NCBI GenBank assembly: GCA_944325665.1
Contig: CALVAY010000004.1
Location: 1-64,000, forward strand
Origin: Candidatus Gastranaerophilales bacterium
GTDB lineage: Bacteria; Cyanobacteriota; Vampirovibrionia; Gastranaerophilales; Gastranaerophilaceae
DNA length: 64,000 nucleotides
Reading direction: 5' to 3'
Part shown: positions 44,696 to 61,049 of the stretch, in pieces
Layout: every line of letters begins with the position of its first letter
How positions within the stretch are numbered: the first letter of the stretch is position 1
Made by a program: the position numbers and the translations under genes
Notes under the pieces: generated by a model
The model's database searches: none
Told to the model about the DNA's origin: nothing
What the model saw: only the letters and a program-made list of their open reading frames with translations

Positions 44696-45544
44696 TTATT
44701 TTTTCTTCTTAGCTTTTCTCTTAACAAATTTATAAAGTCCAAACAATGTCGGCTTGTATGAATTAAGATTTTTGTTTGACTCAAGTAATAAAATTTTTAG
44801 TTTCTTGTTTTCATCCTCAAGGGCTGAGATTTTATTTTCTAATTCTTTATTATGGTTTTGAGCTTCAATTAGTTTTGTATTATTGCTTTGCTCGCTTACC
44901 AACAGCAAACTAACCTGTTGTGCAATTTTTTTAGCAAGAGCCTTTGCAACCATGCTTATTGTTTTTTCAGAAATATCAAGCTTGAAGGCATTTTCAACAT
45001 TTTGCGCCGAAAACTCGGGATTTTTCTTCTCAAGCTGGCTTATGACGTAATTTTTAAATTTTTCTTGCGCCTGAAAAGAATCAGACAATAACTCCATATC
45101 GTCAAAGTCCTCTTCTTGTGTTTCTTGAGGTAGCTGTGGCTCACTATTTTCTTCTTTAACATCGGCATCATTTTGAACCTGTTGAGCGTCTGCCTCTTTA
45201 TTTTCTTCCTTTTGAGCATTTTTTAGCGGCAATAAATCAGAAGAAACTTCATTCCAGCTTTTCCAGTCAATATTTTCAAGTTCACCTTTTTTCTGTTCAA
45301 ACAGCTCTTGAGCTTCAAGCTCTTTTTCTCCCGCAGAAACATTTTTACCCTTAGAGGGAGCAAGCTTACTTGTTATAATTTCAAGTGCAGTCTTATCAAA
45401 AAGCTCATTTCCGTCTTTATCTTCAAATATTGCTTGGATTTTAAAATCTTTGATAAAATCACTCAATGTCAAAAGGTCAACAAAGTAACCTTCTTGAGAT
45501 AATTTTTCTACTATTTCCTCTTTTGTAAAAATCCCTGAACTCAT
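44696..45544 (-). CDS. Coiled-coil cytoplasmic protein of unknown function
   Basis: A 282-residue acidic protein I cannot assign. Residues 1-60 look like a compact helical domain (FTKEEIVEKLSQEGYFVDLL). Residues 70-155 are low-complexity and rich in Glu/Gln/Asp. Residues 160-205 are helical. A coiled coil runs from about 215 to 262 (NKELENKISALEDENKKLK), ending in a very basic tail (KFVKRKAKKKK). No export signal is seen. The 5-bp gap to rseP suggests shared expression. GGAT lies before the ATG. Confidence 0.7.
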   Translation of the reverse strand: MSSGIFTKEEIVEKLSQEGYFVDLLTLSDFIKDFKIQAIFEDKDGNELFDKTALEIITSKLAPSKGKNVSAGEKELEAQELFEQKKGELENIDWKSWNEVSSDLLPLKNAQKEENKEADAQQVQNDADVKEENSEPQLPQETQEEDFDDMELLSDSFQAQEKFKNYVISQLEKKNPEFSAQNVENAFKLDISEKTISMVAKALAKKIAQQVSLLLVSEQSNNTKLIEAQNHNKELENKISALEDENKKLKILLLESNKNLNSYKPTLFGLYKFVKRKAKKKK

Positions 45545-45604
45545 AATTACATCCGCATCGTATAAAAAAAATTATAGCTTAAAAATCGTTTCAAAACAAT
45601 ATAT

Positions 45605-45628
45605 AAAAAAATGCCTCATAATTGAGGC
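45605..45628 (-). terminator. Terminator of the AMIN-domain protein gene
   Basis: GCCTCA (45613-45618) and TGAGGC (45623-45628) form a 6-bp stem with a 4-nt loop. On the minus strand it is followed by a run of seven T, about 33 bp past the stop codon of the upstream gene. Confidence 0.85.
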
Positions 45629-45660
45629 TTATTGGTTGAGTATTATATTTACATTAAAAT

Positions 45661-46797
45661 TTAAACCGCAGTTTTGCGTTTATGGACTCCCTCTCTGAGC
45701 CCCTGAGCCAAATCGGCTCTTCCGCTTTGTTCGTATATCTTTGTAACAGACTCAAGAAATTTAATATTGTCGGCAGAAACATTTGCTTTGGGAGAAGACA
45801 CGTTTGTTGCCCTTACTTGAGGTTTTGTTACAAATGAATTTGAGGATTGAGCGAAAGAGCCTGCTCTGTTTGGGTATTTTAAAGGTTGCGCATTGTGCGT
45901 CTTTGTAATGTAAGGATTTTTTTGTGAATTTTGATAAGCACCAAGTGCATAGTTTTGTTTAATTGCATTAGTATTAGCCATTCTTGGTTTTTGCTTAGGC
46001 AAAATTGACGAATAATTATTTGAAGCATATTTAAGTGCAGGGTTAACTTGCGGCTGCATTTGTTTTGATGGTTTATTTAAAGCAGGCATTTGCTTAATTT
46101 CTTCAGTTTGTTCAAAATCTTTTTGATAAGCGGAAGATAGACCGATTAACGGTTCTTCCTGAAGTTTAATTTTTGCAAAAACTTTCTTTGAAATAACAAT
46201 TGATAAAACCAATAATGACAAGCAAACCATAAGTGTCATATCGGCCTTGCCTTCAAAAAGTCCAAAGAAGGACGCTAAAAGATGCTCTGGATTAAAAGAA
46301 TTTTCATCCCAGTTTATATTCTCATCAAACACTTCTTCAGTATCTACAACGGGCATATACTCTCTTAACGGACGGTTAAGAACAACTTCGTTTTTTGGAG
46401 CGGATACATTTTGTTGAGCCGTTTTAAACACAAGCTTTGTATTTTGAGTATTTAAACCGTTAACGTAAATTCTTACTTTATTTTCTAACTGTTGAACAAT
46501 AACTCCGTCAATATCTGAAACATCGTCATAAATTGTGTCTAAATTATCAACAGTAACAGCATTTTTAAGGTCAAAATAAATACTGTCTTGAGATTTTACT
46601 TTTGTTTTGTATTCAATAGGAGCATCGGCCTTAATTGTAAGCTGATAAGCACCGTCTAACTCAGCGGGTTTTGAAAGCGAAACCGACTTAACTGATATTT
46701 CTTGTGCCAAAGCACCTGTTGCAAATGCTAAAAGCGTAAAAATTGTTGTTACTACTTTTTTAACTCCGAACTTAAAAGTTCCTCTCATAATACTCAA
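45661..46797 (-). CDS. Exported membrane protein with AMIN-like domain
   Basis: A 378-residue protein. A signal peptide (ending ALAQ, about residue 32) is followed by an AMIN-like beta domain (about 33-130; SVKSVSLSKPAELDGAYQL, VRIYVNGLNTQNTKLVF). A membrane helix at about 185-203 leads into a long disordered cytoplasmic tail rich in Asn, Gln, Lys and Pro. AMIN domains target envelope machines such as amidases and secretins. The start is either TTG 46797, with AGGGAG 5 nt upstream, or ATG 46788. It resembles FliO-type topology, but no flagellar genes are nearby. The specific function is unknown. Confidence 0.75.
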   Translation of the reverse strand: MSIMRGTFKFGVKKVVTTIFTLLAFATGALAQEISVKSVSLSKPAELDGAYQLTIKADAPIEYKTKVKSQDSIYFDLKNAVTVDNLDTIYDDVSDIDGVIVQQLENKVRIYVNGLNTQNTKLVFKTAQQNVSAPKNEVVLNRPLREYMPVVDTEEVFDENINWDENSFNPEHLLASFFGLFEGKADMTLMVCLSLLVLSIVISKKVFAKIKLQEEPLIGLSSAYQKDFEQTEEIKQMPALNKPSKQMQPQVNPALKYASNNYSSILPKQKPRMANTNAIKQNYALGAYQNSQKNPYITKTHNAQPLKYPNRAGSFAQSSNSFVTKPQVRATNVSSPKANVSADNIKFLESVTKIYEQSGRADLAQGLREGVHKRKTAV

Positions 46798-46887
46798 AAA
46801 CTCTCCCTAATCAGTTTTAATATAGTTAAATATTAATTCCTTTCAGGAAGAGTATCATCAATCTTGAGGTTTAAAATATATCTAGAT

Positions 46888-47361
46888 CTAAAGGTTGATT
46901 TTTTTAGACAAATTTGCCATTTCAATTGCGGCTTTTGCAGCCTCTGAACCTTTATTTCCGGCTTTTGTACCAGCTCTTTCAATCGCTTGTTCAATATTGT
47001 CGGTAGTTAATACACCAAAGATAACAGGAATATTTTCAGACAATGACACAGAAGCAACGCCTTTTGATACTTCAGCGCAAACGTAGTCATAATGAGAAGT
47101 TGAGCCTTTAATAACAGCACCGAGCGTAACAATGGCACTGTATTTATTTGTTTTAGCAAGTTTTTTTGCAATTAAAGGTATTTCAAAAGCCCCGGGAACC
47201 CAAACAACGTCAATATTTGCCTCATCAACTCCCAATCTTACAAAAGAGTCAACAGCGCCCGATAAAAGTTTTGAGCCTATAAACTCGTTAAATCTTGCAA
47301 TCACGATACAGAATTTATCTTCTTTTTGTGCGTATAAATTACCTTCAATTGTGTTTGGCAT
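46888..47361 (-). CDS. ribH: 6,7-dimethyl-8-ribityllumazine synthase
   Basis: A 157-residue lumazine synthase. Motifs include [20 protein letters not shown] (substrate binding), [34 protein letters not shown] and [20 protein letters not shown]. It makes the last riboflavin precursor and assembles as an icosahedron or decamer. I chose ATG 47361 with GGGGG 10 nt upstream. No other rib gene is adjacent, and I see no FMN riboswitch in front of it. Confidence 0.97.
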
Positions 47362-47420
47362 AAAATATCCCCCAAAGTAGTTACAAAAGGATATTAGCAC
47401 AAAAATAATTTTACATAAAG

Positions 47421-47450
47421 AAAAAGGCTTTTGAAAAAATCAAAAGCCTT
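47421..47450 (-). terminator. Hairpin terminator in the ribH-sigma intergenic region
   Basis: AAGGCTTTTG (47424-47433) and CAAAAGCCTT (47441-47450) form a perfect 10-bp stem with a 7-nt loop. On the minus strand it is followed by T-rich sequence. No annotated gene ends here, so it would terminate a transcript arising within the intergenic region. Confidence 0.75.
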
Positions 47451-47545
47451 AGGAATACTTGTTTAGTAATTCCCCGTGTGTGAAGTGAAGGTTAGTGTGT
47501 GTTGGTTAGAAAGTATATCTTTTATGAATTTATATCTTATATATC
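47424..47545 (-). ncRNA. Candidate small RNA
   Basis: On the minus strand a conserved AT-rich element (47571-47546) is followed by about 100 nt without an ATG. A C/A-rich stretch with little apparent pairing (47510-47480) and a small GGAAT/ATTCC hairpin precede the terminator at 47450-47421. The upstream element is shared with the 58-aa gene at 61076, which suggests a promoter or regulator site. This is an inference from layout only. Confidence 0.4.
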
Positions 47546-47571
47546 GCTTACATATATATAAAGTATTTCAA
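47546..47571 (-). repeat. Shared AT-rich element, copy B
   Basis: On the minus strand TTGAAA is followed by a 21-bp block ending TATATATATGTAAGC (47566-47546). The same 21 bp occur on the plus strand at 61029-61049. It lies just upstream of the candidate small RNA. Confidence 0.6.
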
Positions 47572-47753
47572 CTTTAAAAAATTGCGCGGTTGATATAAAT
47601 GTGTTACAAAAGTTAATAATTTTTAAAAGTGGTTGATTTTATTGGATTATATCAAATTTAATATATTAAGTTATGTTAAAAAACTATCATTTTTTAGAAA
47701 TTATCTTAATATTTCTTAAAATAAGGGTTGAGTTTTTTTATGTCAAATGATAT

Positions 47754-47775
47754 ATTGAGTATATATCCTATATAT
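47754..47775 (+). repeat. Shared AT-rich element, copy C (diverged)
   Basis: ATTGAGTATATA followed by three differing bases and TATATAT matches the first 22 bp of the copy at 61020 with three mismatches. It lies about 170 bp upstream of the sigma factor gene. Confidence 0.45.
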
Positions 47776-47943
47776 CATATTGTTTTTGCTTACCTGTTTT
47801 TAGTTAAAGATTTTATGAATTAACCAATTCAAAAGTCTTAATTGTTGTGTCTTTTTTCGTTTTTTCAAAATACGCCAAAAAGCATTACTTGGCGTGCAAA
47901 TTTAAAGTGCAGATTATGGTTTAGAAATATTGAGGTGTCTTTT

Positions 47944-48840
47944 ATGAAAAATTCAGCTGTTAGTGTTAAAAAACAAAATCAAAACAATGGTACAAAAATT
48001 ATCAACTTTGACGAAAATCTAAATGCTTACGTCAAAAAAATTGCAAAGTACGCTGTCTTAAATTCCAAAGAAGAAAAACAACTTGCAAAAGCGGCTCAAG
48101 AAGGCGACTTAGAGGCAAAGAAAAAACTTGTTCAAGCAAACTTAAAGCTTGTGTTTAATATTGCTAAAAAATCTATCCACACAACAACGCTCAGTATGAG
48201 CGATTTAATCCAAGAAGGAAATATGGGGCTTATGGTCGCCATTGATAAATTTAACTGGCGTTTGGGTTATAAGTTCTCAACTTATGCAAGCTGGTGGATA
48301 AAACAGGCAATGTTTAAGGCAATTTCCGAGCAGTCATATTGTATGAAAATACCTGTGTATATTCAAGAAACGCTTTCAAAATATAAAAAAGTTAAATCCT
48401 CGCTTGAACAAAAATACGGTTGCAGCGTGAAAAATTCACAAGTTGCAAAATATGTAGGTTACAGCGAAGAAAAAATTGACCAATTCTTAAATGCATACAA
48501 TAAGGCTCTTTCTCTTGATACAGGCTTTGAAACACAAGATTCAAAGGAAATGAGCTTAAGTGAAATTATTGAAGATGAAAAACAAAACATAGAAAGAACA
48601 ATTTTGGATAAGCAGCTTAAAAACGATATTCAAAGTGCTCTTGAATGTTTAAAAGACAGAGAAAAAGAAGTTATTACGCTTCGCTTTGGCTTAGGTGAAA
48701 ACGCTAAAAAAACCTTGGAAGAAATCGGAAATATTTACGGCGTTACAAAAGAATGTATAAGACAAATTGAAAAAAGGGCAATTCAAAAAATCAACTCAAC
48801 TAAAAAAGTTCACGATATGCTCTTAAGCTACGTTATTTAG
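47944..48840 (+). CDS. Group 2 RNA polymerase sigma-70 family factor
   Basis: A 298-residue sigma factor with regions 1.2 (NLNAYVKKIAKYAVLN), 2 (SDLIQEGNMGLMVAIDKFNWR, YKFSTYASWWIKQAM), 3, and 4 (LKDREKEVITLRFGLGE, TLEEIGNIYGVTKECIRQIE). It lacks region 1.1 and is shorter than a housekeeping RpoD, so it is a group 2 (alternative, RpoD-like) factor of the kind common in Cyanobacteria. I chose ATG 47944 with GAGGTG 6 nt upstream. A hairpin (ACGCCAA/TTGGCGT, 47871-47895) sits in the leader. Its stop overlaps the convergent bioC gene by 8 nt. Confidence 0.93.
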   Translation: MKNSAVSVKKQNQNNGTKIINFDENLNAYVKKIAKYAVLNSKEEKQLAKAAQEGDLEAKKKLVQANLKLVFNIAKKSIHTTTLSMSDLIQEGNMGLMVAIDKFNWRLGYKFSTYASWWIKQAMFKAISEQSYCMKIPVYIQETLSKYKKVKSSLEQKYGCSVKNSQVAKYVGYSEEKIDQFLNAYNKALSLDTGFETQDSKEMSLSEIIEDEKQNIERTILDKQLKNDIQSALECLKDREKEVITLRFGLGENAKKTLEEIGNIYGVTKECIRQIEKRAIQKINSTKKVHDMLLSYVI

Positions 48841-49543
48841 CAACCGCAAGAACATAAACAGGGTTATAAGTCAAGCAATAGCCGTTTTCATCATAGTATT
48901 CTTCCTTGTATCTTTTCTCAAAATTCTTATAATCCTCTTTTGTCCAAACTTTATCCGACTTAACCAAAGCGCCTGTATGTTTAATGTGCTTTAAAACGTC
49001 CTGAAAGCGTTTAAAATATACGCTGTCTATCTCACACTCATAGTGAATAACTTCATAACCTGCAAGGTTCAAGAGCTCTTCGTAGTTAGGATACTTTAGC
49101 CCCAGTCCCAAAATTTTCCTAAACTGCAAACAATTATCATCCCCAAAACTTGAAAAGGCCAAAACTCCGTTTTTGTTTAAACTCCCCTTTAATTTTACAA
49201 AAAAATCCAAAGGATTATTAATCCACTGAAAACAGGCCCCTGAGACAATTAAATCGCACATTTTAGGAAGATCAATCTCTTCAACGTTACCCTTTAAAAA
49301 AGTGAAGTCAAAGTTAGTATAATTTTTCGTCAAATCATTTAAAATCAGCTCTTTATAAGTTAAATTATTAACAATATTTTCCGTTAAAAGCCCTGTGCCT
49401 GAGCCTATTTCAAAAATTTTTTCAAAATTCGTGCCAAAATTTTTACTCAACAAAAAACAAAGGTCGCTTGCCATTTTCTTCTGCACAATGGCATTTTGTT
49501 TATACGTTGCTGCCGCATTTGAAAAATCAGCTTCTTTTGACAT
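48833..49543 (-). CDS. bioC: Malonyl-ACP O-methyltransferase BioC
   Basis: A 236-residue SAM-dependent methyltransferase. FSNAAATYKQNAIVQKKMA at the start is the BioC signature, and FEIGSGTGLLTENI (about residues 43-56) binds SAM. BioC methylates malonyl-ACP so that fatty acid synthesis can build the pimeloyl chain for biotin. The adjacent bioG, 2 bp upstream, supplies the esterase, supporting the call. GAAGG lies 6 nt before the ATG. Confidence 0.93.
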   Translation of the reverse strand: MSKEADFSNAAATYKQNAIVQKKMASDLCFLLSKNFGTNFEKIFEIGSGTGLLTENIVNNLTYKELILNDLTKNYTNFDFTFLKGNVEEIDLPKMCDLIVSGACFQWINNPLDFFVKLKGSLNKNGVLAFSSFGDDNCLQFRKILGLGLKYPNYEELLNLAGYEVIHYECEIDSVYFKRFQDVLKHIKHTGALVKSDKVWTKEDYKNFEKRYKEEYYDENGYCLTYNPVYVLAVAK

Positions 49544-49545
49544 AA

Positions 49546-50208
49546 TTAACCTTCAAGAATTTCATCAAAATCTCTAAATTCAAAAAACGGAAAATGCCCG
49601 CACTCAAGTTCAAGTTTATTATTATGCGCAGCCCAGAAATTAGACTGGGAAGAATACGGGAAAATTCTGTCCTTCTTTGTTAAAACAACTTTTTCGAAAG
49701 GAAAATTTTTCTTAAACCAAGAATGTTTTGACGTCATTTTAATATTCAACAACTCAGCTGCCAGATTTTCAATTTTCCTGTTTGCAGGTTTAATATTTAG
49801 CGGGGAAGATGAGCCTATTGCCATTTTCTTCTCAAATTTTTCAATTGTATCAGAGTTAAGTGAATTTAGCATAAGGTCATAAATTTTTTCATTAACCCCG
49901 TATTCATTATCCACCGGACAAAAAGTTCCGCATAGGGCACAGCTTTTATTAATTTCGGGCAATAAGTCCATATTATAAGTATAATTAAGCGCCCAAACAC
50001 CGTATGAATAAGCAATAACATTTACTTCGGTATATGGAGTAAAGTCAAAATATTCAAGCGGGTTATTTTCCATATCCGAGTAATCATAAACAAAAAGCAA
50101 ATCGCTTTTGTTGTTATCAAACTCTATAAAACAATTGGCATCAGTATAAAATCCGCAGAAAAAGATTATCAAAGATGTCTTATTGTGTGATATAAATTCG
50201 GTTTTCAT
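49546..50208 (-). CDS. bioG: Pimeloyl-ACP methyl ester esterase BioG
   Basis: A 220-residue DUF452/BioG protein. The nucleophile serine is in IAYSYGVWAL (about residues 65-74), the acid probably Asp in LTKKDRIFP, and the histidine in ECGHFPFFEF near the end. BioG removes the methyl group from pimeloyl-ACP methyl ester, ending the BioC-started route. No bioF, bioA, bioD or bioB is in the window. GAGGAA precedes the ATG. The TPR gene diverges from here. Confidence 0.93.
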   Translation of the reverse strand: MKTEFISHNKTSLIIFFCGFYTDANCFIEFDNNKSDLLFVYDYSDMENNPLEYFDFTPYTEVNVIAYSYGVWALNYTYNMDLLPEINKSCALCGTFCPVDNEYGVNEKIYDLMLNSLNSDTIEKFEKKMAIGSSSPLNIKPANRKIENLAAELLNIKMTSKHSWFKKNFPFEKVVLTKKDRIFPYSSQSNFWAAHNNKLELECGHFPFFEFRDFDEILEG

Positions 50209-61019: not shown

Positions 61020-61049
61020 ATTGAGTATATACTTTATATATATGTAAGC
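61020..61049 (+). repeat. Shared AT-rich element, copy A
   Basis: ATTGAGTATAT followed by a block that ends TATATATATGTAAGC. Positions 61029-61049 are identical over 21 bp to the minus strand at 47566-47546. It lies 26 bp before the 58-aa gene. It could be a promoter for an alternative sigma factor or an operator. Confidence 0.6.

Follow-up and report, generated by a model that had tools for sequence, protein, structure and literature searches.

Features between ribH and the sigma-70 family gene

The window, that is, the whole 64,000-nucleotide stretch analyzed here, belongs to a genome of 1.65 Mb in 30 contigs. On the minus strand, the interval from ribH to a gene of the sigma-70 family contains, in this order, an HLR1-like box, a GCAATT element, a promoter block, an unpaired 5′ part, a hairpin (hairpin 1), and a terminator. 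Together they delimit a putative small RNA (sRNA) gene (Table 1), whose transcription would start near 47551–47544.

Table 1 Features of the putative sRNA gene and its surroundings in the window.
Feature	Position	Strand	Basis or remark
ribH (lumazine synthase, PF00885)	starts at 47361	-	Pfam match
Terminator T-rich tail TTTCTTTA	47416..47423	-	Terminator scan and alignment
Intrinsic terminator stem-loop	47424..47450	-	11 pairs, loop 5, tail TTTCTTTATG
Hairpin 1 GGAATTACTAAACAAGTATTCC	47452..47473	-	Predicted fold
C/A-rich stretch, ~40 nt, unpaired	~47511-47474	-	Predicted fold
Unpaired tandem seed region CTAACCAACACACACTAACCTTC	47487..47509	-	Conservation and complementarity to target leaders
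Putative sRNA gene, ~125-136 nt	47416..47551	-	Inferred from promoter and terminator
Core promoter block AAATACTTTATATATATGTAAG	47547..47568	-	Common to nine genome sites
GCAATT element	47576..47587	-	Upstream of the core promoter block
HLR1-like box, candidate RpaB site (+ strand reading GTTACAAAAGTTAATAAT)	47603..47620	-	Consensus KTTACAWW-N2-KTTACAWW (PMC13421787)
Sigma-70 family gene	starts at ~47944	+	Divergent from the sRNA gene

The initial annotation had proposed a trans-acting sRNA at 47424–47545, limits that agree well with the transcript drawn from promoter and terminator, starting from a minus-strand terminator (47450–47421) said to have no gene to terminate. The terminator itself was confirmed, its stem (47450–47424) being the longest among eight terminator-like sites in 45000–50000, where shuffled sequences lead one to expect 2.5. 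For the minus strand of 47416–47530, the predicted folding energy is −22.0 kcal/mol; shuffles average −8.3 (z −5.2), and none of 200 equaled it. Both the terminator and the fold lie beyond chance. In this predicted fold, the C/A-rich part stays single-stranded, as had been described, and a small second hairpin is added at 47473–47452. Conversely, the absence of a gene behind the terminator did not hold: ribH begins on the same strand 62 nt beyond it, and a leader or attenuator reading therefore had to be weighed.

No open reading frame (ORF) of at least 40 aa overlaps 47424–47545. The ~100 nt reported to be free of ATG were indeed so, and the whole 136-nt minus strand (47551–47416) is free of GTG as well, though one TTG occurs. 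The promoter-like element noted as shared also recurs: AATACTTTATWWATATGTAAG, allowing up to three mismatches, was found at nine genome sites, the sRNA site included, where a reversed control pattern gave none. Another element, GATATATARGATATA (at most one mismatch; one match for its control pattern), has two genome sites, both in this intergenic region, one just 3′ of the sRNA promoter (47531–47545) and the other before the divergent sigma-factor gene (47762–47776).

Conservation and distribution of the element

Conservation of the hairpin in close relatives had been set in advance as a check on the proposal, which it passed. The element was present in all 15 genomes of the genus searched (Candidatus Gastranaerophilales), the 14 others carrying it at 84–93% identity. 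Over the 13 genus loci with both parts complete, mean identity was 99% for the seed stretch, 99% for the promoter block, 98% for hairpin 1, and 90% for the terminator, compared with 83% for the first 60 bases of ribH and 76% for the far upstream region. Within 47474–47511, 35 of the 38 positions were invariant in these 13 loci.

To follow the element further, a covariance model (R1) in which hairpin 1 alone was paired was built from 21 copies; these include the window's own, and the 21 thus match by construction. ACACACTAACCT is invariant in all 21 aligned copies. On the window copy, itself part of the model, R1 covers 47416–47515 (E 2.6e-15). Under the stricter Infernal filters used, which can miss weak matches, 278 of the 288 family genomes matched at E ≤ 0.1, in 40 of 41 genera and with one to six copies each. 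This distribution suggests that the sRNA likely matters to its hosts. The ten genomes of the family with no match include both genomes of genus g9 (G022 and G082). At the level of the order, 95 of 117 sampled genomes matched at E ≤ 0.01, and among the order-sample matches listed, a single genome (G048) came from another family, with a weak match (E 0.006). In the phylum sample, 84 of 194 genomes matched, all 84 from family f1.

A scan of species genomes with the core pattern yielded at least 112 stretches. Among the 80 matches listed, the named lineages were Gastranaerophilales, Melainabacteria, or Cyanobacteria, with the exception of Brachyspira, Heliobacteriaceae, and Fusobacterium sp. CAG:439, whose records we take to be misnamed bins; many further titles read "uncultured bacterium" and are uninformative on lineage. 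The exact core pattern had no match in viral_contigs, and a phage origin was rejected.

The model search returned 103 matches. Manual curation removed 13 of them: six truncated at a contig end, six lying so close to one that the upstream part was missing, and one duplicate, which left 90 copies. As the terminator had been left unpaired in the model, its survey tests the unit in part independently. A stem with a T tract behind it was found in 84 of the 90 copies, as 61 distinct stem-loops, against 4 of 450 shuffles, the terminator being kept while its sequence changed; the remaining six showed by eye a terminator stem with a mismatch. Hairpin 1 had 99.1% of its cells paired over 94 distinct copies, with a double change in one cell only, too little variation for its covariation to be decided.

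The core promoter block lay in range in 77 of the 90 copies, which were used for the ORF survey; the promoter survey drew on 79 distinct block-carrying promoters. Eleven of the 90 copies had no recognizable block or too little upstream sequence. Closed ORFs of at least 10 codons occurred in 2 of the 77 copies and an ATG in 18, and the median length, with ends placed from promoter and terminator, was 135 nt. The proteins flanking the 74 loci with flanks fall into 49 clusters, which makes the sRNA a free-standing unit in other genera, and an ORF of at least 100 aa overlapped it in one locus. Some copies have extra C/A repeats (L020, for example), and tandem sRNA pairs 228–274 nt apart were seen in L021 (the same place as L089), L119, L120, L129, and L085.

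Complementarity to translation start regions

From 5′ to 3′, the sRNA carries CTAACC or CTACC and then ACTAACCTT, the latter complementary to AAGGTTAGT in the leader of target A, a 186-aa gene for a predicted coiled-coil protein. In at least 12 of the 15 genus genomes, target A is preceded by AAGGTTAGGAGG-N-ATG. Because this site includes a Shine-Dalgarno sequence, its conservation can be explained in part without any sRNA. A similar site, AAGGTTAGGA, stands before a gene of 219 aa in at least 11 of the 15.

Homologs of target A were found in 24 of the 30 genera tested. In 19 of 22 genomes, the final 130 nt of the leader of target A contain an exact AAGGTTAG (0.4% for mononucleotide shuffles), and GGTAGGAG or GGTTAGGAG stands before the start codon in 16 of 22 leaders (a slightly different set), the rest having mostly variants. 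The second seed (CTAACC or CTACC) can pair at the Shine-Dalgarno region, and since it precedes ACTAACCTT in the sRNA, both leader sites can pair in antiparallel order. The initial annotation had foreseen that the C/A-rich stretch could pair with ribosome-binding sites; complementarity to translation start regions does occur and holds across genera, but the sites are AAGGTTAG and GGTAGG/GGTTAGG and not the GGTGTG-like ones it had suggested.

At least eight contiguous Watson-Crick pairs can form in 18 of 22 sRNA-leader pairs, against 8% for shuffled leaders. A permutation test was run on 21 of the 24 target A genomes plus G000 (G061, G070, and G072 were omitted, having no pair or a weak match), with one sRNA copy chosen in genomes with several. 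At the Shine-Dalgarno region, own pairs reached −14.9 kcal/mol and swapped pairs −13.7 (p = 0.0008, uncorrected for kinship); over the whole leader, p was 0.02, likewise uncorrected. By longest match, swapped sRNAs did nearly as well as own ones (8.4 vs 8.5) because the main seed is invariant. The gain in duplex energy over shuffled sRNAs was modest, with a mean z of −1.15 over the 22 and values above zero in G030, G034, and G063. In G030, the leader lacks AAGGTTAG, and the sRNA copy compared, one of two, lacks CTAACC. In G000, target A ranked first of 63 leaders, the other 62 coming from the window. The best of the window leaders lies at ~3838 on the minus strand (−17.9 kcal/mol), and that of a methyltransferase at 49543 was also seen.

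The bipartite site AAGGTTAG-N5-35-GGTAGG was then searched in 97 genomes and, among the matches listed, occurred 81 times against 15 for a control pattern. Of 30 bipartite matches read, 20 are followed within 2–11 nt by the start codon of an ORF measuring 170 aa or more (13 target A homologs, five members of a second protein family, and two other ORFs), eight are the other strand of sRNA genes, and two have no ORF. The second family, with the site before its start codon in L306, L307, L309, L310, and L311, measures 258–284 aa, and its L309 member had no Pfam or NCBIfam match above cut-off. The single-seed site AAGGTTAG-N0-16-ATG was hardly enriched in the genus (159 vs 140 for the control over 15 genomes), which would mean that the target set is small or that more than the AAGGTTAG-pairing seed is needed.

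For target A itself, NCBIfam gave no match and Pfam none above cut-off. Its AlphaFold2 model (mean pLDDT 87.5) consists of helices only, a Foldseek search with this model gave no PDB match at E ≤ 0.001, and the best PDB match by sequence was a coiled coil (E 0.007).

By sequence, then, the element has its own promoter and terminator, independent of its neighbors, is noncoding, and has conserved complementarity to mRNAs encoded elsewhere. The layout of a trans-acting sRNA put forward at the outset is supported by the core being kept in other genera without ribH, by the different terminator stems found there, and by the start-region complementarity. We are highly confident that this is a real sRNA gene. 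As a whole, the likely explanation is an independently transcribed, trans-acting antisense sRNA of ~130 nt that would block translation of a small set of mRNAs, possibly under RpaB. It would be transcribed from its own promoter with the HLR1-like box and end at the intrinsic terminator, and its two seeds would pair antiparallel with AAGGTTAG and GGTAGG/GGTTAGG just before the start codon, in the leaders of target A and of at least one further protein family. That it acts by pairing on target A appears very likely. The paired leader would mostly block ribosome entry, as the site abuts or overlaps the Shine-Dalgarno sequence; repression, though less certain than pairing, is probable.

The C/A repeats might instead titrate a single-strand RNA-binding protein and not pair with mRNA, and the repeated CACAC/CTAACC units, of which copies such as L020 have more, would suit such a role, as would strong conservation without structure. 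Titration would predict neither the conserved leader complementarity in antiparallel order nor the co-variation of the Shine-Dalgarno-proximal pairing, and we find it improbable.

A cis-acting ribH leader or attenuator, with a transcription start on the upstream side of the C/A-rich stretch and a terminator that controls read-through into ribH, would fit the closeness of the terminator to ribH, both being on one strand. In all 15 genus loci, the sRNA has ribH, the sigma gene, or both beside it, and ribH itself was present in 13, the other two loci being cut by contig ends or too short. However, copies from other genera adjoin other genes (glutamine synthetase-like, TsaD-like, and GAPDH-like by sequence reading), no ribH match was found in L016–L030 (loci of ~1.7–3.1 kb), and no linkage to riboflavin genes was seen across genera. 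The single predicted fold also shows no alternative to the terminator, and no FMN riboswitch or other Rfam family matched the window at the gathering score. As the gene contexts differ between genera, we consider a ribH leader very unlikely.

Further Rfam searches gave weak matches only (best E 1.2 in one of them). Over 12 homologous loci, the best was Trp_leader, which at 31.4 bits (E 0.0015) stayed below its cut-off of 41, overlapping the G062 copy on the same strand, and a Phe_leader match (E 0.64) overlapped the copy in L279. Both were rejected as identities, and we take them as a resemblance of hairpin plus terminator.

HLR1-like box and relation to known small RNAs

The HLR1-like box of the window matches 14 of 16 informative positions and is thus not a perfect site. 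At least 13 of 16 matched in all 79 distinct homologous promoters, which had been chosen for carrying the TACTTTAT block, a level that 13% of mononucleotide shuffles reach; 27 boxes were perfect (16/16), and 76 lay at one of two adjacent offsets. GCAATT stands at a fixed distance in the 79 promoters, with each of its six positions conserved in 97% of them or more. HLR1 is described as the binding motif of phosphorylated RpaB, activating from about −66 to −45 (PMC13421787), and given a start at 47551–47544, the box would lie at roughly −76 to −52, overlapping this range. Both features looked for in an RpaB regulon were found, the KTTACAWW-N2-KTTACAWW consensus upstream of the promoter and RpaB encoded by the genome (equivalog NF045944, 364.8 bits against a cut-off of 330).

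At target A in G000, the spacing of box, GCAATT, and core block is that of the sRNA within 1 nt. A clear HLR1 box is lacking in several of the target A leaders (11–13/16). Among 22 loci, of which most extend over no more than ~1.5 kb, five have rpaB after target A. In one of these (L034, G000:C14), target A occupies 1470–2030 and rpaB 2221–2967, and this RpaB is 88–94% identical to that of the four other loci where target A and rpaB adjoin. RpaB control of the sRNA is somewhat more plausible than its absence. More weakly, RpaB may activate both the sRNA and the target mRNA, in a feed-forward loop such as RpaB and PsrR1 form in Synechocystis. The host group is described as non-photosynthetic, and its RpaA, RpaB, and NblS homologs may have another function (PMC3787301); the conserved box, sRNA, and target offer concrete sequences for probing the role of RpaB in such bacteria.

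In Synechocystis PCC 6803, PsrR1 is an sRNA of the RpaB regulon that blocks translation by pairing within a feed-forward loop (PMC13421787). We likened the present sRNA to it by description; PsrR1 acts on photosystem I and phycobilisome transcripts, whereas the host here is of a group described as non-photosynthetic (PMC3787301). Yfr1, a short RNA present almost throughout its clade, combines an unpaired, ultraconserved C/A-rich motif with a 3′ terminator. It base-pairs mostly at translation initiation regions, and of 11 targets tested in Nostoc it repressed 10 (PMC2190773, PMC6778093, PMC6974561). Like Yfr1/Yfr10 of cyanobacteria, the present sRNA has an unpaired C/A-rich motif, a 3′ terminator, a clade-wide distribution, and start-region complementarity. 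It differs in its motif (ACACACTAACCT here, ACUCCUCACAC in Yfr1), in its two collinear seeds, in the HLR1-like box upstream, in being often multicopy, and in its length (~130 nt with inferred ends, against 54–69 nt). RsaE and the csRNAs of Firmicutes have several unpaired C-rich seeds facing Shine-Dalgarno regions, a feature that the sRNA shares, again by description.

A diverged ortholog of Yfr1 would account for the common phylum, the unpaired C/A-rich core before a 3′ terminator, the near-universality in a clade, and the complementarity at translation starts (PMC2190773, PMC6974561), but is highly unlikely, as the ultraconserved ACUCCUCACAC by which Yfr1 is defined (PMC2190773) is absent from the alignment of 21 copies, the 5′ stem-loop of 6–10 bp before the motif is missing (the window copy folds with no stable pairing 5′ of the motif), and the matching genomes of the phylum sample are confined to one family. 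Yfr1 was also not among the Rfam matches of the window or of the homologous loci. Rfam does hold a Yfr1 model.

The sRNA would work like Yfr1 and PsrR1 but lacks those defining features of Yfr1 for which it was examined. It would represent a new family within a known kind, the trans-acting sRNAs. The sRNA in the window belongs to no Rfam family at the gathering score, and no paper on a small RNA of Melainabacteria or Gastranaerophilales was found by title and start of abstract, in a collection with few subscription papers and no preprints.

A second sRNA-like gene lies beyond the window at G000:C4:71664–71837 on the minus strand (L032:6165–6338), at ~50 nt distance from a gene for tRNA-Leu. 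It shares the promoter block and carries CACACACTAACCAAACTTCCTAACCTTCCC, a terminator, and two CTAACC seeds. Its type was matched in all 15 genus genomes, and look-alikes occur in five loci of other genera (L302–L304, L318, and L320). One may speculate, tentatively, on a family-wide regulon run by RpaB in these non-photosynthetic bacteria, with at least two paralogous sRNAs (this type included), the same type of promoter at sRNAs and targets, and two collinear seeds shutting the targets off. If so, the feed-forward scheme of RpaB and PsrR1, described for light acclimation, would reflect how RpaB circuits work in general, and would either predate photosynthesis or be independent of it.

The promoter block also occurs, with one mismatch, at 61028–61048 of the window (plus strand), before a small ORF (MRLAAANDLDAKLAELYYSK...), which is followed by a threonyl-tRNA synthetase-like gene of 590 aa. 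At G000:C6:367–387 (minus strand, L036), the promoter type, with three mismatches, precedes a stretch without an obvious ORF, ending in a terminator-like hairpin, possibly another noncoding RNA.
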